A program made the translations under genes and the position numbers. A stretch of 64,000 nt of DNA. Origin: Allostella sp. ATCC 35155 (GTDB lineage: Bacteria; Pseudomonadota; Alphaproteobacteria; ATCC43930; Allostellaceae). Within the stretch, counting starts at the first letter, position 1. Each line of letters opens with the position of its first letter. The notes beneath the pieces are model-generated. The model was not told the origin of the DNA. It saw only the letters and a list, made by a program, of their open reading frames with translations, and ran no database searches. The stretch is taken from positions 3,654,001 to 3,718,000 of the forward strand of contig AP019701.1 in assembly GCA_006738865.1 (NCBI GenBank). Direction: 5' to 3'. This document shows positions 3,475-48,729 of the stretch, in pieces.

Positions 3475-4653
3475 ATGGCGAACAAGCGCACGGTCGGAGT
3501 TCGCGGGGTCGGCCGCCGCAAGGTTCTGGCCGGCATCGCGGCCACCACGGGGCTCACCATCTGGTCGCCCCGCCTGTCGGCCCAGTCGGGCGAGATCGCG
3601 GTCGGGGCGATGGTGCCGATCACCGGCCCCTTCAACGTCTCGGGCCAGCAGTACCACTTCTCGCTGCAGATGGCGCAGGACGAGATCAACGCCAAGGGCG
3701 GCGTCGCCGGCAAGAAGCTGAAGATCGTCTTCGAGGACGTGAAGGATTCGAACAGCGTCGCGGTCAACGCCTATCTCAAGGTCGTCCGCGACACCAGTCC
3801 GCCCTTCGTGTTCCTGTCGAGCTATACGACGCAGAACCTCGCGACCGAGCCCGAGGTCACCAAGGCGCAGATCCCCGGCATGTATGCCGGCGGCGGCGAC
3901 GCCATGCACATGAAGAAGAACCCCTGGCTCTTCCGCATCCGCCCGGCGGACGGCATCCAGGCCCTGGCGCTGGCGAAGCACGCGACCGAGGGGCTGGGCA
4001 AGAAGAAGATCGGCATCCTCTACGTCCAGAACGATTTCGGCCAGCCGGGCGCGATCGCCGCCGAGAAGGTGATCAAGGCCGCGGGAGCGACCACCGTCGG
4101 CCTGGAGGCCTATTCCTTCACCGACAACGACATGTCGGCCCAGATCCAGAAGCTGAAGGGCGCCGGCGCCGACTGCCTCATCTGCATCTCCTACGGCAAG
4201 GACGGGGCGCTGATCCTCAAGCTGGTCAAGGAGATGGGGATCGACCTGCCGATCGTGATCTCGTCCGGCGTGATGGTGCCGGCGGCGCGCAACCTGATCG
4301 CGCCCGACGAGCTGGCGAACGTCAACGGCGTCATGGACGCCTATCTCGCGCCCGAGCGCGGGCCCGAGGTCGCCGCCTACATCAAGAGCTTCAAGGACCG
4401 CTTCAAGATCGAGCCGGACCCGTTCGGCTCCTGCTACTACGACGGCGCCTGGATCCTGAAGCAGGTGCTGGACAAGGTCGGCCCGGACCGCGCCAAGATC
4501 CGCGACGAGCTGAAGGCCCTCAAGGGCTACAAGGGCATCACCAACACCTTCTCGACCGACGCCGACGGCAACATGGTGCATTCGCTGGCCGTCTTCAGCA
4601 TCAAGCCGGGAACCCGCGAGCCGGTCTTCATCCGCACCGTGTCCGCGGCCTGA
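3475..4653 (+). CDS. Branched-chain-type ABC transporter substrate-binding protein
   Basis: Periplasmic binding protein of the LivJ/type-1 family, 392 residues. The start at 3475 is preceded by GGGAGACGAGG and gives an N-terminus with a twin-arginine-like stretch (GRRKVLAG, about residues 13-20) followed by a hydrophobic segment ending at LSAQ, so export may be by Tat. The mature protein opens EIAVGAMVPITGPF, the standard first strand of this family, and keeps the alternating two-lobe pattern (IGILYVQNDFG; GADCLICISYG). It heads the liv-like genes to 8016. It follows hyuB directly, so the ligand is more likely an amide or amino-acid derivative than leucine itself; that is inference. A longer in-frame reading from 3403 overlaps hyuB and lacks a signal peptide. 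Confidence 0.93.
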   Translation: MANKRTVGVRGVGRRKVLAGIAATTGLTIWSPRLSAQSGEIAVGAMVPITGPFNVSGQQYHFSLQMAQDEINAKGGVAGKKLKIVFEDVKDSNSVAVNAYLKVVRDTSPPFVFLSSYTTQNLATEPEVTKAQIPGMYAGGGDAMHMKKNPWLFRIRPADGIQALALAKHATEGLGKKKIGILYVQNDFGQPGAIAAEKVIKAAGATTVGLEAYSFTDNDMSAQIQKLKGAGADCLICISYGKDGALILKLVKEMGIDLPIVISSGVMVPAARNLIAPDELANVNGVMDAYLAPERGPEVAAYIKSFKDRFKIEPDPFGSCYYDGAWILKQVLDKVGPDRAKIRDELKALKGYKGITNTFSTDADGNMVHSLAVFSIKPGTREPVFIRTVSAA

Positions 4654-4660
4654 GCCGTCC

Positions 4661-4686
4661 GGAGCCGGCGCCCGCGCGCCGGCTCC
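4661..4686 (+). terminator. Perfect 11-bp GC hairpin between binding protein and permease
   Basis: Arms GGAGCCGGCGC (4661-4671) and GCGCCGGCTCC (4676-4686) with loop CCGC sit 7 bases after the binding-protein stop. No T-tract follows, so it is more likely an mRNA-stabilising or attenuating hairpin than a full terminator. It would favour more binding protein than permease. Confidence 0.6.
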
Positions 4687-4717
4687 ACTCGCACCCTTGG
4701 GGGGAGTGCCGGCGCCG

Positions 4718-5596
4718 GTGTCGCAGCAACTGATCCAGCTCATCGTCAGCGGCCTCGCGGTCGGCGCGGTCTACGCGCTGGTCGGCCTCGCCTTCATCAT
4801 GGTCAACGAGGCGACCGGGGTGGTGAACTTCGCGACCGGCCAGATGGTCGCGATCGGCTGCTTCCTCTCGGTCACGACCGGGATCCAGATGGGCCTGCCG
4901 CTCGCCGCCGCCTATCCCCTGGCGCTGGCCGGGATGGCGCTGTTCGGCATGGTCTTCTATGCCGTCGTCTTCCGGCCGCTGCAGGACCGTCCGGTCGTCA
5001 CCGTCATCATCGGCACGGTGATGATCGGCATCGTCATCCAGAATTCGGCCCTCATCACCTGGGGGTCGGTGCCGTTCCGGCCGCGCTCGCCGTTCGGGCG
5101 CCAGGTGGTCGATGTCTTCGGCGCCGCCATCTCCGCACACGCCCTCTTCGTCATCGCCGTCTCGTTCCTGATGATCGGGCTGCTCTACGCCTTCATCTAC
5201 CGCACGACGATCGGCGCGCGGATGCGGGCCGTCGCCCAGGATCGCGACGCCGCCCGGCTGATGGGCATCGGCGTCGACCGCATGTTCGTCCTGACCTGGG
5301 TCATCGCCGGCCTGCTGACGGGCACGGCCGGGCTGCTGGTCGGGCCGATGTGGTTCGCGGACGTCAACATGGGCGACCCGATCGCGCTCAAGGCTTTCGC
5401 CGCGATCATCATCGGCGGCTTCTCGAGCGTGCCCGGCGCCATCGTCGGCGGCATCCTGGTCGGCCTCGCGGAAATGCTGGGCGCGGCCTATGTCTCGTCC
5501 GCGTACAAGGACGGCCTCGTCTTCCTCGTCATGATCCTCTTCCTGCTGGTGCGGCCACAGGGGATCTTCGGCGAGCGCATCGGGCAGCGCGCATGA
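4718..5596 (+). CDS. livH: Branched-chain-type ABC permease LivH
   Basis: Inner-membrane permease of the LivH family, about 292 residues, hydrophobic throughout with roughly eight membrane segments. It opens SQQLIQLIVSGLAVGAVYALVGLAF, the normal LivH N-terminus, and carries the FATGQMVAIG segment. Three in-frame starts are possible: TTG 4697, GTG 4706 and GTG 4718. The GGGGGGAG ribosome site at about 4699-4706 has a sensible spacing only to 4718, so I chose that. The stop overlaps livM in an ATGA. It pairs with LivM to form the channel for the upstream binding protein. Confidence 0.9.
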   Translation: MSQQLIQLIVSGLAVGAVYALVGLAFIMVNEATGVVNFATGQMVAIGCFLSVTTGIQMGLPLAAAYPLALAGMALFGMVFYAVVFRPLQDRPVVTVIIGTVMIGIVIQNSALITWGSVPFRPRSPFGRQVVDVFGAAISAHALFVIAVSFLMIGLLYAFIYRTTIGARMRAVAQDRDAARLMGIGVDRMFVLTWVIAGLLTGTAGLLVGPMWFADVNMGDPIALKAFAAIIIGGFSSVPGAIVGGILVGLAEMLGAAYVSSAYKDGLVFLVMILFLLVRPQGIFGERIGQRA

Positions 5597-6549
5597 GGCC
5601 GCCGCGCAATCGGCTCGCCGTCGCGGCCGCCCTCGTCGCCTTCCTGCTGGCGCTGGCCCTGCCGGCCTTCGTCAGTGGCTACGGCATCCGCATCCTGAAT
5701 CTCGCCCTCATCTCGGCGATCGCCGTCATCGGCCTCAACTTCGCCTTCGGCTATGCCGGCCTCATCACCCTGGCGCAGGCCGGCTTCGTCGGCTGTGGCG
5801 CCTACCTGACGGCGATCCTGTCGACCACGGCGGGCCTGCCGCCGCTGCTGTCGATCCCGCTGGCGGTCGTCGGCACGACCGCGATCGGCGCCGCGGTCGG
5901 GCTGCCGATGCTGCGCCTCAAGGGCCACTACCTCGCGCTGGCGACGCTCGGGTTCAACGTCTCCTTCGTCATCGTCGCGACCAACTGGAAGTCGGTCATG
6001 GGCGGCACCGACGGCATCTCCGGCATCCCGTCCTTCGCCGTGCCCGGCTTCGCCTTCGCCACCGACCACCGCTACTACTACGTCCTCTGGCTGGCGCTGG
6101 CGCTCGCCACCGGGATCGCGTGGCGCATCCGCTACTCGCACATCGGGCTGGCGATGATCGCGGTCCGCGACGACGAGATCGCGACCGGCGCCGCCTCGGT
6201 CGGCGTCACGCGCATCAAGGTCCAGGCCTTCTCCCTGTCCGCGGCCTATGCGGGTCTCGCCGGCGCGCTCTTCGCCCACATGACCAACTTCGTCGCGCCC
6301 GACGACTTCGCCCTCAGCCATTCGATCATCTACCTCGCCATGCTGATCATCGGCGGCGAGGGCTCGATCCTGGGGGCGATCGCGGGTGCGGTGATCGTCA
6401 CCTTCATGCCCGAACTGATGCGCGACCTGGGGCAGGCCTACATGATCATCTTCGGCAGCCTCATGCTGCTGATCCTGATCTTCCTGCCCAAGGGCCTGCT
6501 CAGCCTCGCCGCCATGGCGGCCCGCCGGATCGGGATCTCCGGCCGATGA
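5593..6549 (+). CDS. livM: Branched-chain-type ABC permease LivM
   Basis: Second permease subunit, 318 residues, with the LivM hallmarks NFAFGYAGLITLAQAGFVGCGAY near residues 50-72 and HYLALATLGF about 60 residues on. Near the C-terminus, IIGGEGSILGAIAGA is the loop that contacts the ATPases. The ATG overlaps the livH stop by four bases (ATGA), and its own stop overlaps livG in the same way, so translational coupling is expected. Inner membrane. Confidence 0.93.
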   Translation: MRPPRNRLAVAAALVAFLLALALPAFVSGYGIRILNLALISAIAVIGLNFAFGYAGLITLAQAGFVGCGAYLTAILSTTAGLPPLLSIPLAVVGTTAIGAAVGLPMLRLKGHYLALATLGFNVSFVIVATNWKSVMGGTDGISGIPSFAVPGFAFATDHRYYYVLWLALALATGIAWRIRYSHIGLAMIAVRDDEIATGAASVGVTRIKVQAFSLSAAYAGLAGALFAHMTNFVAPDDFALSHSIIYLAMLIIGGEGSILGAIAGAVIVTFMPELMRDLGQAYMIIFGSLMLLILIFLPKGLLSLAAMAARRIGISGR

Positions 6550-7322
6550 CGACGATCCTCGCCGTCGACGGCCTGTCGAAGAGTTTCGGCGGCGTCCATG
6601 CGGTCCAGTCCGTCTCGCTGGCGGTGCCGCAGGGCATGATCTTCTCCGTCATCGGCCCCAACGGTGCCGGCAAGACGACGCTGATCAACGTGCTGACGGG
6701 CATCCTGCCTTCGTCCGGCGGCACGGTGCGCTTCGCCGACCGGACCATCACCGATGCGCCGGCCCATGTCATCGCCGCCGCGGGCATGGTCCGCACCTTC
6801 CAGAACGGGCGTCTCTTCCACCGGCTCACCGTGATCGAGAACGTCCTGGTCGGCGCGCACCATCGCCTGCCGCAATCCGTCTGGTCGGCCATCACGGGCG
6901 GTGTGGCGGCGCGGCGTACGGCCGAGATCCGTTCCCGCGCCCGCGGCCTGCTGGAGACGCTGGGGCTGATCGACGACGCCGACCGGCTGGTGGGTGCCCT
7001 GCCCTACGGCCGCCAGCGCATGGTCGAGATCGCCCGCGCACTCGTCTCCGAACCCAAGCTGCTGCTGCTCGACGAGCCGGCCGCCGGGCTCAATTCGGGC
7101 GAGGTCGAGCGCCTGCGCGAGGTTCTTCTGGGCCTGCGCCGGGACGGGCTGACGATCCTCCTGGTCGAACACAACATGGGGCTCGTCATGCGCGTCGCCG
7201 ACCGCATCGCCGTGATCCATTTCGGAGAGAAGATTGCCGAGGGCACCCCCGCCGAGGTGCGCGGCGACCCCAAGGTCCTGGAAGCCTATCTCGGGCACGG
7301 ATACCGCCATGCTGGAGATTGA
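6546..7322 (+). CDS. livG: Branched-chain-type ABC transporter ATPase LivG
   Basis: Cytoplasmic ATPase, 258 residues. Walker A is GPNGAGKTT (about residues 37-45), the signature is the LivG-type LPYGRQRMVEIARAL, Walker B is LLLLDEPAAGL and the switch histidine lies in LLVEHNMG. The C-terminus EAYLGHGY is characteristic of LivG. The start at 6546 overlaps the livM stop (ATGA). Its 3' end overlaps livF by 14 bases. Confidence 0.94.
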   Translation: MTTILAVDGLSKSFGGVHAVQSVSLAVPQGMIFSVIGPNGAGKTTLINVLTGILPSSGGTVRFADRTITDAPAHVIAAAGMVRTFQNGRLFHRLTVIENVLVGAHHRLPQSVWSAITGGVAARRTAEIRSRARGLLETLGLIDDADRLVGALPYGRQRMVEIARALVSEPKLLLLDEPAAGLNSGEVERLREVLLGLRRDGLTILLVEHNMGLVMRVADRIAVIHFGEKIAEGTPAEVRGDPKVLEAYLGHGYRHAGD

Positions 7323-39267: not shown

Positions 39268-39936
39268 TCACCCGACGATCGCGAACCGACCGGGCAATAT
39301 TCGATCGGGCGGTGGCGCAGGCGCCTCGCCGATCCACCGCACATGCCGCCCGAGGATGGCACAGGCCGATTCGATGTCCCCGGCCCGGAGGCTGGCCAGA
39401 ATCGCGCGGTGGTCATGATCGGTGCGCGCCTCCCAGTCGGCCCGCCAGGCGGCGAAGAGGAAGCGCGCGCTCGCCTGATGCAGGTCGTCGATCGCGGCGA
39501 GCAGGCGCGGCATCCCGCATGGGGTCGCCAGCAGGCGATGGAAGCGACGGTTCGCCGCCTCCCAGGACCGGACGTCGCGCGATTCGTCGGCGGCCCGGGT
39601 CGCGGCGTCCGCCTCCTCCAGGATCGCCGGAGTGAGGTTCGGCACGGCATGGCGAAGCGCGAGCACCTCCAGCGCCGCCCGCATCTCCGCCACCTCCCGC
39701 ACCTCCGCCAGGCCGAAGGACGCCACCCGGACGCCGCGCCGCGGCATGCTGACGGCGAGCCCTTGGGATTCCAGGCGCCGGAACGCCTCGCGCACGGGGA
39801 CGTGGCTGGCACCGAACTCGGCCGCGACATGGTCCTGGCGCAGGCGCGAATCCGGCGCGATCTCGCCGGCGATGATGCGCTCGGCGAGGGTCCGGCTGAT
39901 GCGGACCGCCAGCGTCTCGTCCCGCCCGCCGCCCAT
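39268..39936 (-). CDS. GntR-family regulator with FCD domain (candidate BioR)
   Basis: 222 residues: an N-terminal winged helix (ISRTLAERIIAGEIAPDSRLRQDHVAAEFGASHVPVREAFRRLESQGL, about 13-60) and an FCD ligand domain with ALEVLALRHAVPNLTPA, NRRFHRLLATPCGMPRLL and the metal-type HDHRAILASLRAGDIESA near residue 175. Two readings compete. It lies immediately upstream of bioY, whose control region has BioR-like boxes, and BioR is a GntR protein often encoded beside bioY. It also starts 11 bases after hutF on the same strand, so it could serve histidine use, although the usual HutC has a UTRA rather than FCD domain. I favour BioR moderately. Confidence 0.87.
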   Translation of the reverse strand: MGGGRDETLAVRISRTLAERIIAGEIAPDSRLRQDHVAAEFGASHVPVREAFRRLESQGLAVSMPRRGVRVASFGLAEVREVAEMRAALEVLALRHAVPNLTPAILEEADAATRAADESRDVRSWEAANRRFHRLLATPCGMPRLLAAIDDLHQASARFLFAAWRADWEARTDHDHRAILASLRAGDIESACAILGRHVRWIGEAPAPPPDRILPGRFAIVG

Positions 39937-39946
39937 CGGACGGCGC

Positions 39947-41311
39947 CTATGCCGCCAGCAGACGGCGCATGGTCGCCGCGAAGCGGCGGCCGACGCGCTC
40001 GCGCGCGACGTGCCGGCCCTCGGTCACGACCGCCCGGCCGCCGATCCACACGGACCGCACCAGCCGGCCGTCGCCGGCGAATATCCACCCGTCGAGCCAG
40101 TGGTCGCCCCCGCGCCCCACCAGGGCAGGATGGTCCGGGTCGAGCAGCACGATGTCGCAGCGGCGGCCGGGCGCCAGCGCGCCGACGGCGCGGCCCGTCG
40201 CCGGAGTGCCGCCCGCCAGCGCCCGGTCGTACAGCGACCGACCGGTGGATCGCCCCTGCGCCGCCTCGGTGACGTTGCGGGTCTCGTCGCGCAGCCTCTG
40301 GCCGTACTCCAGCAGCCGCAGCTCCTCGGCCGCATCGATGCGCACGTTGCTGTCGCTGCCGATGCCGAAGCGGCCGCCCTGCGCAAGGAAGGGCGGCAGG
40401 GGATAGATGCCGTCGCCGAGATTCGCCTCGGTGATGGGGCAGAGGCCGGCGACGGCACCCGACGCCGCGATCCGTGCCACCTCCCCCGGGCTGACGTGGG
40501 TCGCGTGAACGAGGCACCAGCGACCGTCGACCGGCACCTCGTCCAACAGCCAGTCGACCGATCGGCGGCCGCTCCAGGCGAGGCACTCCTCGACCTCCCG
40601 CCGCTGCTCGGCGATGTGGATGTGGATCGGTGCCGCGCCCGCGTCGGCGACGACGTCCGCCAGGGTGTCCCGCGTGACTGCCCGGATCGAGTGGGGCGCG
40701 ATCCCGACGACGGCGTCGGCCACGTCCCGCAGCGCGTGCCGGGACGCCGCGACGATCCGAGCGAACTCGTCGGGCTCGCTGACGAAACGCCGCTGCCCCG
40801 GCTCCGGCGCCCCGCCGCCGAAACCGCAGAAGCGATAGAAGACCGGCAGGTGGGTCAGCCCGATGCCGCTCTCGGCCGCCGCCCGCGCGATGGCGACCGC
40901 CATCTCGGCCAGGTCGGCGTAGCGCCCGCCGTCCGGCGCATGGTGCAGATAGTGGAACTCGGTCACCGCGGTGAACCCGCTCTCGACCATCTCGACATAG
41001 GCCTGGGCGGCGATCGCGGCGACATCGTCGGGGTCGAGCCGGGCGAGGAAGCGGTACATGACCTGCCGCCAGCCCCAGAAATTGTCCTCGCCGGACCCAC
41101 GCCGCTCGGCCAGGCCGGCCATGCCGCGCTGGAACGCATGGCTGTGCAGGTTCGGCAATCCGGGCACGGCGATCCCGTCATGTGCCTCGCACCCCGCCTT
41201 CGCCGCTCCGCGCTCGACGCCGCCGATCCAGCCCCTCTCATCGACGGCGATGCGCACGTCGTCGGCCCACCCGTCCGGCAGCAGAGCATGGGCGAAATGC
41301 AGCATCTTCAT
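39947..41311 (-). CDS. hutF: Formimidoylglutamate deiminase HutF
   Basis: About 454 residues of the amidohydrolase superfamily. Metal and catalytic motifs are [16 protein letters not shown] (HxH), [44 protein letters not shown] and [11 protein letters not shown]. It converts N-formimino-L-glutamate to N-formyl-glutamate and ammonia, the two-step branch of histidine breakdown. Start chosen at 41311 ([15 protein letters not shown]); an ATG at 41323 adds MCLA. It is divergent from hutI with a 74- to 86-base shared control region. No hutG (N-formylglutamate deformylase) is visible in the window. Confidence 0.93.
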
Positions 41312-41397
41312 CGCAAGGCACATCCTGGTCCGGGTCGATCGCGTGTATCGTAGCCCCCGGCGTGACGCCGCGGCGAGGAGGGTTTGGGGGAACAGGC

Positions 41398-42612
41398 ATG
41401 GAGGCCGATCGCATCCTCGTCGATGGCCGCGTCGCGACCATGGAGCCCGGACCGGACGCCTACGGCACCGTTGCCGGCGGCGGCGCGGCAGTAGCGCTCG
41501 CCGGTGAGCGCATCGCCTGGGTCGGCCCCATGGACGACCTGCCGACCGGGCTCGGCCGGGCGGAACGCATCCCGCTGGACGGTCGCTGGGTGACGCCGGG
41601 CCTCGTCGACTGCCACACCCATCTCGTCCATGGCGGCGACCGGGCGCGCGAGTTCGAACTGCGGCTGGAGGGCGCCTCCTACGAGGAGCTGGCGCGCGCG
41701 GGCGGCGGCATCCTCTCGACCGTGCGGGCGACGCGCGCCGCCAGCGAGGGGGAACTGGTCGCGGGCGCCCTGCCCCGCCTCGATGCCCTGATCGCCGAGG
41801 GCGCCACCACCGTCGAGGTCAAGTCCGGCTACGGCCTGACGCCGGACGACGAGGCGAAGATGCTGCGCGCGGCCCGGCGCCTGGGGCGCGAGCGGCCGGT
41901 CGGCATCCGCACGACATTGCTCGCCGCCCACGCGCTGCCGCCCGAATTCGCCGGCGATCCCGACGGCTATGTCGACCTCTGCTGCGGACCGATCCTCGAC
42001 GCCGTGGCGGCCGAGGGGCTGGCGGACGCCGTCGACGCCTTCTGCGACCGCATCGCCTTCACCCGCGCCCAGACCGAGCGCGTATTCGCCGCCGCCCGCG
42101 CGCGCGGCCTGCCGGTCAAGCTGCATGCCGAGCAGCTGTCCAACCTCGGCGGCGCCGCGCTCGCCGCCGCGATGGGCGCGCTGTCGGCCGATCATCTGGA
42201 GCATCTCGACGATCCCGGTGCGGCCGCGATGGCGGCTGCCGGCACCGTCGCCGTGCTGCTGCCGGGGGCCTTCTACTTCCTGCGCGAGACGAAGCTACCG
42301 CCGGTCGAGATCCTGCGCCGCCTCGGGGTGCCGATCGCGATCTCGACCGACCTCAATCCCGGCTCCTCGCCCCTCTCCTCACCGCTCCTGGCGATGAACA
42401 TGGCCTGCACCCTCTTCCGACTGACGCCGGCCGAGGCCCTGACCGGGATGACGCGGAACGCCGCCCGGGCGCTGGGTCTCGGCGACGAGATCGGCACGAT
42501 CGCGCCCGGCAAGCGCGCCGACCTCGCGATCTGGGAGGTCGAGCGGCCCGGCGAACTCGCCTACCGGATCGGTTTCAACCCGCTGTGGCGGCGGCTGTGG
42601 AGTGGCAGATGA
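41398..42612 (+). CDS. hutI: Imidazolonepropionase HutI
   Basis: 404 residues. It begins [18 protein letters not shown] after a GGGGGAA ribosome site. Amidohydrolase motifs: [70 protein letters not shown] and [13 protein letters not shown]. It hydrolyses 4-imidazolone-5-propionate to N-formimino-glutamate, feeding HutF. The stop overlaps hutH in an ATGA. Confidence 0.95.
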
Positions 42613-44147
42613 CGACGACCGTGACGCTCGGCCTCGAGGGCCATCCGCTCGCCGCGTGGCGGGCGATCCTCCATGACCGGGCGCCGGTCGCGCTCGATCC
42701 GGCGGCCCGGCCGCGCGTCGCGGCGGGGGCCGAGACGATCGCCGCCATCGTCGGACGCGGCGCCCCCGTCTATGGCGTCAACACCGGATTCGGCAAGCTC
42801 GCCCATGCCCGCATCGAGGCCGACGACCTCGCCACCCTGCAGCGCAACCTCGTGCTCTCGCACGCGACCGGTGTCGGCCCGGCATTGCCCGACCCGGTGG
42901 TGCGCCTGATCCTGGCGCTGAAGATGGCCAGCCTCGCCCGCGGCGCCTCCGGCGTGCGCTGGGAGACGGTGCAGTTCCTGGAGCGGATGCTGGCCGCCGA
43001 CATCCTGCCGGTGATCCCGGCCCAGGGCTCGGTCGGCGCGTCGGGCGACCTGGCGCCGCTCGCCCACATGGCGGCAGCGATGATCGGCGTCGGCGACGCC
43101 CGCGCCGGCGGCGAGGTGCTGCCGGCCGCGGCCGCGCTGGCGCGTGCCGGCCTCACGCCCCTGGCGCTGGGGCCCAAGGAAGGGCTCGCGCTCCTCAACG
43201 GGACGCAGGTTTCGACCGCCCTGGCGCTCGACGGCCTCTTCGCCATCGAGCGCGTGTTCCGTGCCGCCCTGGCGGCGGGCGCGCTCTCGCTCGACGCCGC
43301 GCTCGGCTCGGACACGCCGTTCGACCCGCGCATCCACGCGCTGCGCGGTCATGCCGGCCAGAGCGACGTCGCCGCGGCGCTGCGCGCGCTGGTGGCCGAC
43401 AGCGGCATCCGCGCCTCGCACAAGGATTGCGGCAAGGTCCAGGATCCCTACTGCCTGCGCTGCCAGCCGCAGGTCATGGGCGCCTGCCTCGACCTCCTGC
43501 GGCAGGCCGGCCGGACGCTGGCGATCGAGGCCGACGCCGTCTCCGACAATCCGCTGGTCTTCGCCGAGACGGGCGAGGTGCTGTCGGGCGGCAACTTCCA
43601 CGCCGAGCCGGTCGCCTTCGCCGCCGACATCCTGGCGCTCGCGACGGCCGAGATCGGCTCGCTCGCAGAGCGCCGCGTCGCCATGCTGACGGACGGCTCG
43701 ATCAGCGGCCTGCCGCCCTTCCTCACCCGGCGGCCGGGCCTCAATTCCGGCTTCATGATCGTGCATGTGACGGCGGCCGCCCTGGCCGCCGAGAACAAGC
43801 AGCGCGCCGCCCCCGCCAGCATCGACAGCCTGCCGACCTCCGCCAACCAGGAGGACCATGTCTCGATGGCGACCCATGCCGCCCGCCGGCTGGGCGAGAT
43901 GGCGGGCAATGCCGCCGCCATCGTCGGCATCGAGCTTCTGGCGGGCGCCCAGGGCGTGGACTTCCATGCGCCGCTCGCCTCCAGCCCGATCCTGGAGCGG
44001 GTGCGCGCCACGATCCGCGCCGCGGTGCCCCATCTCGACGAGGACCGGTTCCTCGCACCCGACCTCGCCGCGGCCCGCAGCCTCGTCATCGACGGCGCCA
44101 TCGCCGCGGCTGCGGACGCGGCCTGGACGACAATCGCACTGGACTGA
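42609..44147 (+). CDS. hutH: Histidine ammonia-lyase HutH
   Basis: 512 residues. The MIO prosthetic group forms from A144-S145-G146 in [33 protein letters not shown] near residue 55 carries the catalytic tyrosine, and [28 protein letters not shown] are the tetramer active-site loops. It converts L-histidine to trans-urocanate and ammonia. Start at 42609 overlaps the hutI stop (ATGA); an upstream reading from 42585 has no ribosome site. Confidence 0.95.
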
Positions 44148-44220: not shown

Positions 44221-45024
44221 ATGCTGCCGAGCGACGCCGAGATCGAGGCCTACCGCGCCGACGGAGCCGTCTGCCTGCGCGGGGTGCTTGGCCCGGAATG
44301 GCTGGCGCTGCTGGCCGAGGGCGTCGAGCGCAACCTGCGCGAGCCGGGCCCCTTCGCCAAGCGCTACACGCCGGACGGCAAGCCCGGCATGTTCTTCGGC
44401 GACTACTGCAACTGGCACCGCATCCCCGAATACGAGGCGGTGCTGCGGAGTTCACCCCTGGCCGCCGCCGCCGCCCGGCTGATGGGATCGTCCAAGGTCA
44501 ATCTCTTCCACGAGCATGTGCTGGTGAAGGAGCCGGGAACGGAGGAGCGCACCCCCTGGCACCACGACCAGCCCTACTACGTCGTCGACGGCGCCGACAT
44601 CATGAGCATGTGGATCCCGCTCGACCCGGTCGCGCGCGAGATCAGCCTGGAGTTCGTCGCGGGCTCCCACCGCTCGGGCAACTGGTACACGCCGCGGCGC
44701 TTCGCCGACGGCAACGACCATCCGGCGCAGCAGAAGAACTTCACGCCGGTGCCGGACATCGAGGCGGAGCGTGACCGCCACCGCATCCTCGGCTGGGCGC
44801 TGGAGCCGGGCGACCTCATCGCGTTCCATGGCCTCGCCCTGCATGGCGCGCCCGGCAACTCGACCGGCGTGCGGCGGCGCATCGTCTCGGCCCGCTGGAC
44901 GGGGGACGATGCCCGCTATGTCCTGCGCGAGGGCTTCATGTCGCCGCCACCGCCCGAGACGGGCACGCCCGAGGTCGGCGCGCCGATGGACTCCCCGGCA
45001 TTTCCTGTCGTCTGGCGGGCCTGA
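44221..45024 (+). CDS. Phytanoyl-CoA dioxygenase (PhyH) family protein in the hut operon
   Basis: 267-residue Fe(II)/2OG oxygenase of the PhyH family. Iron ligands: H114 and D116 in WHHDQPYY, and H208 in FHGLALHGAPGN; the Arg that binds 2OG lies in VRRRIVS near 219. The N-terminal SDAEIEAYRADGAVCLRGVLGPEW is typical. It sits between hutH and hutU, 73 bases after the first and 3 before the second, so it belongs to the transcript. PhyH-type enzymes in bacteria hydroxylate amino acids and small acids as well as acyl-CoAs. A substrate related to histidine or urocanate (for example a methylated or reduced imidazole) is inference only. Confidence 0.9.
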   Translation: MLPSDAEIEAYRADGAVCLRGVLGPEWLALLAEGVERNLREPGPFAKRYTPDGKPGMFFGDYCNWHRIPEYEAVLRSSPLAAAAARLMGSSKVNLFHEHVLVKEPGTEERTPWHHDQPYYVVDGADIMSMWIPLDPVAREISLEFVAGSHRSGNWYTPRRFADGNDHPAQQKNFTPVPDIEAERDRHRILGWALEPGDLIAFHGLALHGAPGNSTGVRRRIVSARWTGDDARYVLREGFMSPPPPETGTPEVGAPMDSPAFPVVWRA

Positions 45025-45027
45025 GCC

Positions 45028-46698
45028 ATGGTCAACGCCCGTCTCGACAACGCCCGCATCGTCCGCGCCGCGCGCGGCCTCGATCGCACCGCGCGCAGCT
45101 GGCAGACCGAGGCCGCCCTGCGGATGCTGATGAACAATCTCGACCCCGAGGTGGCCGAGCGGCCGCACGAGCTGGTGGTCTATGGCGGGATCGGACGGGC
45201 GGCGCGCGACTGGGACAGCTTCGACCGCATCGCGGCGGCGCTGCGTCGGCTCGAGGACGACCAGACCCTGTGCGTGCAGTCGGGCAAGCCGGTCGGCATC
45301 TTCCGCACACATGCCGACGCGCCCCGCGTGCTGATCGCCAACTCGAACCTCGTCGGCAAGTGGGCCAACTGGGACCATTTCCACGAGCTCGACCGCAAGG
45401 GCCTGATGATGTACGGCCAGATGACGGCCGGTTCCTGGATCTATATCGGCTCCCAGGGCATCGTGCAGGGCACCTACGAGACCTTCGCGGAGGTCGGGCG
45501 CCAGCACTATGGCGGCGACCTCGGCGGACGCTGGATCCTGACCGGGGGCCTCGGCGGCATGGGCGGCGCGCAGCCGCTGGCGGCGACGATGGCCGGGGCC
45601 TCGCTGCTGGCCGTCGAGTGCCAGCCGAGCCGCATCGAGATGCGGTTGGCGACGGGCTACCTCGACGCCCGCGCCGACAGCCTCGACGAAGCGCTGGCGA
45701 TGATCGACCGCGCGTGCCGCGACCGGCGGCCACGCTCGATCGGCCTGCTCGGCAATGCGGCCGAGATCTTCCCCGAGCTGGTGCGGCGCGGCGTCCGGCC
45801 GGACGCGGTGACCGACCAGACCTCCGCCCACGACCCGATCAACGGCTATCTCCCCGCCGGCTGGTCGCTGGAGGAGTGGGAGGACCGGCGGGCGCGCGAC
45901 CCCAAGGCGGTCGAGGCGGCGGCGATGCAGTCGATGGCGGTGCAGGTGCGGGCCATGCTCGACTTCCACCGCATGGGTGTGCCGACCCTCGACTACGGGA
46001 ACAACATCCGCCAGATGGCGAAGGACATGGGCGTCGCCGACGCCTTCGCCTTTCCGGGCTTCGTGCCGGCCTATATCCGGCCGCTCTTCTGCCGCGGCGT
46101 CGGGCCGTTCCGCTGGGCCGCCCTCTCCGGCGACCCCGAGGACATCTACCGCACCGACGCCAGGGTGAAGGAGCTGATGCCGGAGGACCGGCACCTCCAC
46201 AACTGGCTCGACATGGCGCGGGCCCGCATCCGCTTCCAGGGCCTGCCCGCCCGCATCTGCTGGGTCGGCCTCGGCGACCGCCACCGCCTCGGCCTCGCCT
46301 TCAACGAGATGGTGGCCAAGGGCGAGATCGGGCCGATCGTCATCGGCCGCGACCATCTCGATTCCGGCTCGGTCGCCAGCCCCAACCGCGAGACCGAGGC
46401 GATGCAGGACGGCAGCGACGCCGTCGCCGACTGGCCGCTGCTCAACGCGCTGGTCAACTGCGCCTCGGGCGCGACCTGGGTCTCGCTCCACCATGGCGGC
46501 GGCGTCGGCATCGGCTATTCGCAGCACGCCGGCATGGTGGTGGTCTGCGACGGCAGCGAGGCGGCCGCGCGGCGGCTGGAGCGCGTGCTGTGGAACGACC
46601 CCGCGACCGGCGTCATGCGCCATGCCGACGCCGGCTACGACATCGCCATCGACTGCGCCGGTCGCAACGGCCTCGACCTGCCGTTCCTGTCCGCCTGA
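45028..46698 (+). CDS. hutU: Urocanate hydratase HutU
   Basis: 556 residues, standard length. Signatures: [28 protein letters not shown] at the start, [52 protein letters not shown] (the NAD-binding glycine loop), [17 protein letters not shown] and [23 protein letters not shown]. Tightly bound NAD+ acts as electrophile to hydrate urocanate to imidazolonepropionate. It starts 3 bases after the PhyH-type gene and completes the HutH-U-I-F chain in this window. Confidence 0.95.
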
Positions 46699-46725: not shown

Positions 46726-48729
46726 ATGCCCACGAGCCCCCGCATCGCCATCGCCGCCCGGACCAGCTTCGCCGACGGCCATGAATTCGGCGCCGCCGGC
46801 GCCTACGAGAAGCTGTCCGGGCGCGCCCATTTCGCGGTCGACCCGGCCGAGGCCGCGTATGCCGGCATCGTCGACCTCCACAAGGCGCCGCGCAATGCCG
46901 AGGGGATGGTCGAGTTCGCCGCCGACATCATGATCCTGAAGCCGGTCGACGCGGCGCGCGGCAATCGCCGGCTCTTCTTCGGCTACGGCAATCGCGGCAA
47001 CAAGCGCGAGCTGCAGTTCTTCAACGACGCACCGCCCACGAACGACCCGACGACCCTGGCCCATGCCGGCAACGGCTTCCTCTTCCGCCGCGGCTACACG
47101 ATCGTCTGGGCGGCCTGGGAGGGCGACCTGCTGCCGGGCAACGGCCGCCTGGTGCTCGACGTGCCGGTCGCGACCGAGGACGGCCGGCCGATCACCGGGC
47201 CGGTGCGCAGCGAGTTCATCGTCGAGAAGCCGACGACGACACTGCCGCTGTCCGGCCGGGCCTCGACCCGCAGCTATCCGGCCGCCTCGCTCGATACGAC
47301 GAAAGCGAGCCTGACCCGGCGCCGCTACCAGGGCGATGCGCGCATCGCCATTCCGGCCGACCAGTGGGCCTTCGCCCGCATCGAAGGCGGTAGCGGCCTC
47401 GACAACCAGGGGGCCGAACAGGCGGCGATCCCTTCCGACGCCAACATCCACCTGCCGGCGGGCTTCCAGCCCGGCTGGATCTACGAGCTGGTCTATACCG
47501 CCCGCGACCCCCGGGTGCACGGGCTGGGGCACGTCGTCGTGCGCGACCTCGTCAGCTTCCTGAAGCATGACGGCAGCGCCGGCAACCCGCTCGCCGGCAC
47601 GGTCGACAAGGCCTATTCCTGGGGCCGGTCGCAGACCGGCCGCTGCATCCGCGACTTCATCTACCAGGGCTTCAACGCCGATGCGGACGGCCGGCAGGTC
47701 TTCGAGGGCGTGCTGCCGCACGTCTCGGGCGGCGGCCTCATGTGGATGAACCACCGCTTCTCGCTCGTCGTCTCGCCGGCGGGGCAGCAGTACGAAGACC
47801 ATGCGACCATGGCCGACCGCTTCCCCTTCTCCTATGCGGCCTCGGTCGACCCGCATAGCGGCCGGGAGGACGCGATCCTGAAGCGGCCGGAGACGGACCC
47901 GCTGGTGCTGCACACCCAGTCCGCCATCGAGTACTGGCAGCGCCGCGGCTCGCTTGTCCACACCGATGGCCACGGCAACGACCTGCCGCAGCCGGACGGC
48001 GTTCGCGTCTATCTGTGGGCCAGCTCGCAGCACTTCGCCGACCCCAACGTGAAGCGGCCGGCGCGCGGGATCTGCCGCAACTATCTCAACATCGTCCAGA
48101 CCTCGATGCTGTTCCGCGCCATGCTCGACGCCCTCGACCGCTGGGCGACCGACGGCACCCCGCCGCCCGCCAGCCGCATCCCGCTGCGCGCCGACGGGAC
48201 GCTGGTGACGGCCGAGGAGTGGCGCCGCCGCTTCCCCGCGATCCCGGGGGTCGCGCTGCCGACCGCCGCCAATGCCTGCCCCCTGCTGGATTTCGGGCCG
48301 CGGGCGAAGGACGGCATCATCGACCAGGAGCCGCCCGCGGTGCTGGCGGCGGAGGGCTACCCGACGCTGGTGCCGGCGGTCGATGCCGACGGCAACGACG
48401 TCGCCGGCGTCCGCGCGCCGATGGTGGGCGCGCCGCTCGGCACCTACACCGGCTGGAACATCCGCGAGCGCGGCCATGGCCACGGCGCCATGCACGAGTT
48501 CACCGGCAGCTACATCCCCTTCGCCGACACCGAGGAGGAGCGTGCGGCGACCGGCGATCCGCGCCCGTCCGTCCTCGCCCGCCATGCGACGCCGGCCGAG
48601 TATGTGGCGGCGATCGAGGCCGCCGCGCGTGCCCTCGTCGCCGACGGACTGATGCTGGAGGAGGACGTGCCGCGCGCCGTGGCGGCAGCGGCCGACTGGG
48701 GCCGGCCGCTGCACGACGTCCGGCTGTAG
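46726..48729 (+). CDS. Large alpha/beta-hydrolase domain protein (Abhydrolase_10 type)
   Basis: 667 residues without a signal peptide. Family landmarks are FADGHEFGAAGAYEKLSGRAHFAVDP, RRLFFGYGNRGNKRELQFFNDA and GFLFRRGYTIVWAAWEGDLLPG. The nucleophile motif GRSQTGRC lies near residue 300, and IRERGHGHGAMHEFTGSYIPFADT near the C-terminus. These large hydrolases are poorly characterised; some act on esters or diketones. It begins 27 bases after hutU and may be read with the hut genes, but no hut role is known for the family. An esterase or C-C hydrolase for a neighbouring compound is the safest statement. Confidence 0.85.
   Translation: MPTSPRIAIAARTSFADGHEFGAAGAYEKLSGRAHFAVDPAEAAYAGIVDLHKAPRNAEGMVEFAADIMILKPVDAARGNRRLFFGYGNRGNKRELQFFNDAPPTNDPTTLAHAGNGFLFRRGYTIVWAAWEGDLLPGNGRLVLDVPVATEDGRPITGPVRSEFIVEKPTTTLPLSGRASTRSYPAASLDTTKASLTRRRYQGDARIAIPADQWAFARIEGGSGLDNQGAEQAAIPSDANIHLPAGFQPGWIYELVYTARDPRVHGLGHVVVRDLVSFLKHDGSAGNPLAGTVDKAYSWGRSQTGRCIRDFIYQGFNADADGRQVFEGVLPHVSGGGLMWMNHRFSLVVSPAGQQYEDHATMADRFPFSYAASVDPHSGREDAILKRPETDPLVLHTQSAIEYWQRRGSLVHTDGHGNDLPQPDGVRVYLWASSQHFADPNVKRPARGICRNYLNIVQTSMLFRAMLDALDRWATDGTPPPASRIPLRADGTLVTAEEWRRRFPAIPGVALPTAANACPLLDFGPRAKDGIIDQEPPAVLAAEGYPTLVPAVDADGNDVAGVRAPMVGAPLGTYTGWNIRERGHGHGAMHEFTGSYIPFADTEEERAATGDPRPSVLARHATPAEYVAAIEAAARALVADGLMLEEDVPRAVAAAADWGRPLHDVRL

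Follow-up and report, generated by a model that had tools for sequence, protein, structure and literature searches.

The Hut pathway carries histidine to glutamate and, to our knowledge, uses neither oxygen nor 2OG at any step; the sequence-only reading of this DNA had said the same, in agreement with established knowledge. Why, then, does the gene of an apparent iron- and 2OG-dependent oxygenase lie inside the histidine-utilisation (hut) operon of Allostella sp. ATCC 35155, a bacterium of the genus called Stella below? The stretch analysed, referred to as the window, comprises 64,000 nucleotides, and it was compared with the rest of its genome and with related loci (numbered L). The answer reached here is that the oxygenase probably lets the bacteria use a modified histidine-like compound. 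The relevant features of the window are as follows.

39268..39936, minus strand: GntR/FCD regulator beside hutF, not HutC (PF07729 and PF00392)
39947..41323, minus strand: hutF, formimidoylglutamate deiminase, divergent (TIGR02022)
41398..42612, plus strand: hutI, imidazolonepropionase, first gene of the operon (TIGR01224)
42609..44147, plus strand: hutH, histidine ammonia-lyase, intact (TIGR01225, 668 bits)
44221..45024, plus strand: PhyH-family Fe(II)/2OG oxygenase, MysH-like, 267 aa, reading frame intact
44560..44568, plus strand: codons of H114 (and H115) and D116 of the facial triad; H114 and D116 invariant in 51 homologues
44842..44844, plus strand: codon of H208, distal iron ligand
44875..44877, plus strand: codon of R219, predicted 2OG carboxylate-binding arginine (H208+11; position taken from the family)
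45028..46698, plus strand: hutU, urocanate hydratase, intact (TIGR01228, 942 bits)
46726..48729, plus strand: Abhydrolase_10 protein, 667 aa, 3' of hutU (PF20091), retained in the hut operon throughout the genus

The oxygenase gene had been placed between hutH and hutU, 3 bases before the latter. Both neighbours are confirmed by TIGR models, and in the window 3 bases indeed separate its stop from the hutU start. The GntR/FCD regulator scores under every NCBIfam cut-off, and we know of no role of the Abhydrolase_10 protein in histidine breakdown. Since hutH, hutU, hutI and hutF are accompanied by formylglutamate hydrolase (FGase) genes elsewhere in the genome, the known pathway is complete without the PhyH enzyme. 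In other words, this enzyme performs no canonical Hut step: all steps are covered by other genes, and many hut clusters have no PhyH gene. In a profile search, ergothionase and thiourocanate hydratase were absent from the cluster, with HutU falling below the cut-offs of the thiourocanate models.

By profile match and predicted catalytic residues, the gene product is a PhyH-family (PF05721) Fe/2OG oxygenase. The Pfam match covers the full profile (85.9 bits, E 6e-24, cut-off 22), and all 51 aligned homologues keep H114, D116, H208 and R219. The earlier description of an intact iron dioxygenase with H114, D116 and H208 holds, as the three residues stand at these positions in a complete reading frame. 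The family is common in this genome, with 13 matches, so that the position within hut is the feature that calls for explanation. A 46% identical paralogue (G000:C1:3413997-3414779, locus L016/L100) lies directly 3' of an ornithine/lysine-type decarboxylase gene and adjoins a DMT-type transporter gene; these neighbours, identified by eye, hint that the wider branch acts on small amines or amino acids. In another alphaproteobacterium, five PhyH-family genes lie within about 5 kb of each other (L090, 3695-8814).

The gene occurs beyond this strain, whereas confinement to it had been named as an outcome that would refute a role in hut. All four genomes of the GTDB family, which consists of one genus (Stella), retain the order hutI-hutH-PhyH-hutU-abhydrolase, and hut-attached homologues occur at several further places in the tree. 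Stella vacuolata is a named relative, at 89% identity. Because the spacing before hutU varies among the sister species, from about 10 to 214 bases, the 3-base gap itself is not conserved. Within the genus, the gene is under purifying selection, with dN/dS values (0.15-0.22) like those of hutU (0.16-0.17) and hutH (0.21-0.24). In other genera of the same order, no close homologue was found.

Beyond this genus, hut clusters in Betaproteobacteria and in five further families of Alphaproteobacteria contain PhyH homologues of 44-69% identity. Across 387 genomes sampled from the class, PhyH homologues (accepted at E up to 1e-50) were found in 103 genomes, hutU in 110 and both in 63, counts that are uncorrected for kinship. 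The two genes lie no more than 7 kb apart in nine genomes from six families, against 0.31 expected under random placement, likewise with kinship ignored. The arrangements are diverse (genes in the compared loci were called by a simple codon-usage caller). PhyH is divergent from a cluster of Liv-type ABC transporter, hutC and hutU in L112, L113 and L109-L111; it heads a PhyH, NitT-type ABC and hutC operon adjoining hutU-hutH in L106 and L107; it is divergent from hutC, near hutF-hutI-hutG-hutU, in L108; and it stands directly 5' of hutU-hutH-hutG in a betaproteobacterium (L169).

When mapped on a maximum-likelihood tree (134 sequences), the label "hut-linked" changes seven times, and at least six of these changes are forced by well-supported branches. 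This indicates that the link to hut was made or lost several times. Many close homologues (64-69% identity) sit apart from hut genes, beside uppP, psd/pss or 2-oxoacid oxidoreductase genes, which shows that the enzyme is not inherently hut-bound; its position in the Stella operon could be a recent insertion. A pairing of PhyH with a particular hut transporter was considered and dropped, since Liv-type and NitT-type transporters also occur in PhyH-less hut clusters. In L106 and L107, a gene that was assigned by eye to a RutA-like flavin monooxygenase (4643-5725 and 5658-6740, respectively) is transcribed away from the hut-linked PhyH gene, and the two share a HutC-like operator region.

Regulatory sites provide a further connection. 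HutC binds the consensus TGTA-N2-TACA (PMC12977541). A scan of 2.0 Mb of loci for TTGTATATACAA, TTGTCTATACAA and TTGTATAGACAA, allowing at most one mismatch, returned 20 matches, where a simple composition model predicts about 1.5. Fifteen of the 20 are located in the interval that separates PhyH from its divergent neighbour (13 of 17 once duplicate loci are removed). A palindrome resembling the HutC operator is present in the PhyH promoter of 13 of the 14 hut-linked or cassette-linked loci outside Stella, for example CCTGTATAGACAGG about 25 bases 5' of the PhyH start in L106 and L107, and CATGTCTATACATG between PhyH and hutC in L108. The exception is L169, where an IclR-type gene precedes PhyH. 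Such sites also precede hutI/hutF, hutC and hutU in PhyH-less hut clusters, which supports reading them as HutC operators. Judged by these predicted sites, the PhyH genes of the relatives carry the operator of HutC-regulon members, and HutC itself is present in L113, L112 and L106 and, by annotation, in L225 and L226. A scan of the Stella window found no such operator, and its genome encodes no HutC above the TIGR02018 cut-off; co-regulation there thus rests on operon position, and the regulatory evidence comes from the relatives. A literature search found no report of PhyH or any other dioxygenase in hut operons or HutC regulons.

The nature of the enzyme is suggested by its structural relatives, the closest of which act on free small molecules. 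The best match in the PDB is MysH, both with the single sequence (E 2e-32) and with a profile (2e-47, the next being SnoK at 8e-17). An AlphaFold2 model (pLDDT 95.5) likewise matches MysH best (Z 32.4, rmsd 1.9 over 237 residues), followed by SnoK (26.9), SnoN, the proline hydroxylase H11 and the leucine hydroxylase GriE, with human PHYH (Z 22.2; sequence match E 3.5e-6) and EctD ranking lower. For MysH, the predicted reaction is hydroxylation of a glycine attached to nitrogen, upon which this group is released, a mechanism that is itself a proposal (PMC10510106). One residue, R160, sets the hut-linked homologues apart, being present in all of them versus 46% of the others. It was considered as a substrate indicator and set aside as too weak to name a substrate.

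A second oxygenase type appears in some of the linked loci. In Comamonadaceae (L128, L134, L135, L137 and L138, the last on a short contig), genes for a GlcD-like FAD oxidase, a HisC-like transaminase and a VanA-type Rieske oxygenase come after hutU-hutH and a HisJ-type ABC transporter, and a divergent PhyH gene stands next in line. These PhyH homologues, about 62% identical, share their promoter region with the Rieske oxygenase, which has O- and N-demethylases among its relatives in the PDB. A search of the Stella genome for such a partner gave weak matches only.

Cassettes of a Rieske oxygenase (plus reductase), HisC-like transaminase and FAD 2-hydroxyacid oxidase were located in L128 (6214-9832), L225 (9001-13895) and L226 (9001-13857). 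In Aureimonas (L225), the cassette, which includes a reductase, lies near hutC, a HisJ-type ABC transporter and hutH; in Mesorhizobium (L226), it lies near hutC, a HisJ-type ABC transporter and a CoA-transferase/acyl-CoA dehydrogenase pair. Weak HutC-like sites stand beside hutH and beside the CoA-transferase gene in these loci. The cassette beside hutC, HisJ-type transporter and hut genes is a second, undescribed hut-linked module. The CoA-transferase and acyl-CoA dehydrogenase genes (L226, 5400-7821), placed behind such a weak site, could serve the desaturation of imidazolepropionate through CoA esters. Taken together, the cassettes and the CoA-transferase pair indicate that hut regulons gather accessory modules, of which PhyH seems to be one. 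The PhyH-Rieske pairing exists outside hut too: on a plasmid of Paraburkholderia largidicola (L224, 8950-18670), a PhyH homologue forms a cluster with LysR, related Rieske, reductase and ABC transporter genes, with no hut genes.

Repeated ties to hut, through gene order and predicted repressor-binding sites, are the reason why the oxygenase probably opens feeding on a modified histidine-like compound, and within the hut regulon its substrate is likely to be a compound related to histidine. The substrate we infer is an imidazole and the reaction, by analogy, N-dealkylation, which is preferred because MysH is the nearest solved relative and because a demethylase-type Rieske partner occurs in Comamonadaceae. 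As a tentative proposal, a soluble Fe(II)/2OG oxygenase of the MysH-like PhyH branch may thus serve as an optional entry to the Hut pathway by N-dealkylating a histidine-related imidazole. It would hydroxylate a carbon bound to nitrogen, the first-choice target being an N-methyl group, as in tau- or pi-methylhistidine; the hemiaminal would then collapse to an aldehyde and histidine or urocanate, which would pass to HutH and HutU. A narrower version, put forward with greater reserve, is that HutC controls an Fe/2OG N-demethylase, which in Comamonadaceae has a Rieske counterpart, and that this enzyme converts N-methylated histidines or a similar modified imidazole into hut substrates. The original suggestion of an opening towards a modified imidazole fits the hut linkage and the HutC-type operators, while its list of methylated, hydroxylated or reduced compounds is not narrowed decisively by the sequence. 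The literature searched contained nothing relevant here on methylhistidine demethylation or imidazolepropionate breakdown.

Other readings share part of this evidence. The same linkage and operators would suit hydroxylation of another histidine-related substrate (histidine, hercynine or ergothioneine products, imidazolelactate or a histidine opine), feeding or diverting from the pathway; once MysH and SnoK/SnoN are set aside, the nearest folds include hydroxylases of free amino acids (H11, GriE) and the ectoine hydroxylase EctD. This is rather unlikely, as hydroxylating histidine would draw it away from HutH, the cluster has no ergothionase or thiourocanate hydratase, and HutU fits urocanase at 942 bits. 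Alternatively, the side chain of imidazolepropionate (dihydrourocanate) might be hydroxylated or desaturated to yield urocanate for HutU. PhyH lies directly 5' of hutU in Stella and L169, and the transaminase and FAD 2-hydroxyacid oxidase near the Comamonadaceae PhyH gene would be suited to imidazolelactate. A 1973 study by Coote and Hassall (cited in PMC9157411), going by its title, reportedly describes how Pseudomonas testosteroni grows on histidine, imidazolyllactate and imidazolylpropionate, which would also suit this route. However, MysH is not known to oxidise a plain carboxylic-acid side chain, and the Mesorhizobium HutC-like site precedes what would be an ordinary, PhyH-free desaturation system, so that we consider it improbable.

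A substrate unrelated to histidine, with the hut positions arising by chance or by hitch-hiking on hut transporter promoters, would agree with the 13 PhyH matches in the genome, with the uppP, psd/pss and 2-oxoacid oxidoreductase neighbours of close homologues and with the Stella window lacking an operator. Nine linked pairs against 0.3 expected, the at least six changes on the tree, and predicted operators that precede PhyH in nearly all linked loci outside Stella and occur almost nowhere else leave it a small chance. The Pfam name and common fold would also allow a true phytanoyl-CoA-type enzyme acting on an acyl-CoA, yet human PHYH falls far behind MysH in both sequence and structure matches and the operon holds no CoA genes, making this very improbable.

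If N-dealkylation feeding hut is correct, the enzyme would define a new oxygen-dependent branch of histidine catabolism and the first dedicated microbial entry route for the abundant N-methylated histidines that we know of. Recruitment of an oxygenase to the hut operon or regulon in several lineages points to an overlooked side entrance to a textbook oxygen-free pathway, and the genes to examine for it are now named. Moreover, "phytanoyl-CoA dioxygenase" is a misleading name for this branch of PhyH. The ways in which bacteria degrade methylhistidines, imidazolepropionate and imidazolelactate matter more broadly, since work cited in PMC9157411 associates imidazolepropionate, a metabolite of the gut, with insulin resistance.

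Four known systems offer a comparison. MysH (PDB 9c9n, 9ci4), from palythine-type mycosporine biosynthesis, belongs to the same PhyH subfamily, aligns over its full length at about 30% identity and has the iron triad and the C-terminal G-x-P-x-D...FP-x-V motif in common with the Stella enzyme. However, it has no counterpart of the 160-175 loop, where R160 is located in the Stella enzyme, it acts on a cyclohexenimine amino acid and its genes lie in mycosporine clusters; with hut genes as neighbours and no mycosporine cluster, the present enzyme is MysH-like but not a MysH. Human PHYH (2a1x) shares the fold, the HxD...H triad and the 2OG arginine, but it acts on acyl-CoA and is far more distant than MysH. 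With the Hut pathway and HutC regulon, the likeness lies in the complete set of hutH, hutU, hutI and hutF and in the HutC-type site in the oxygenase promoter of relatives. The difference is the oxygenase itself: published HutC regulons contain hut enzymes and transporters, and the text of Leyn et al. 2016 (PMC5343134) names no dioxygenase among their members. Finally, the Rieske methylxanthine N-demethylases NdmA/NdmB remove N-methyl groups to feed a core pathway, as is proposed here, but they belong to another protein family and resemble the Comamonadaceae Rieske partner, not the PhyH enzyme.
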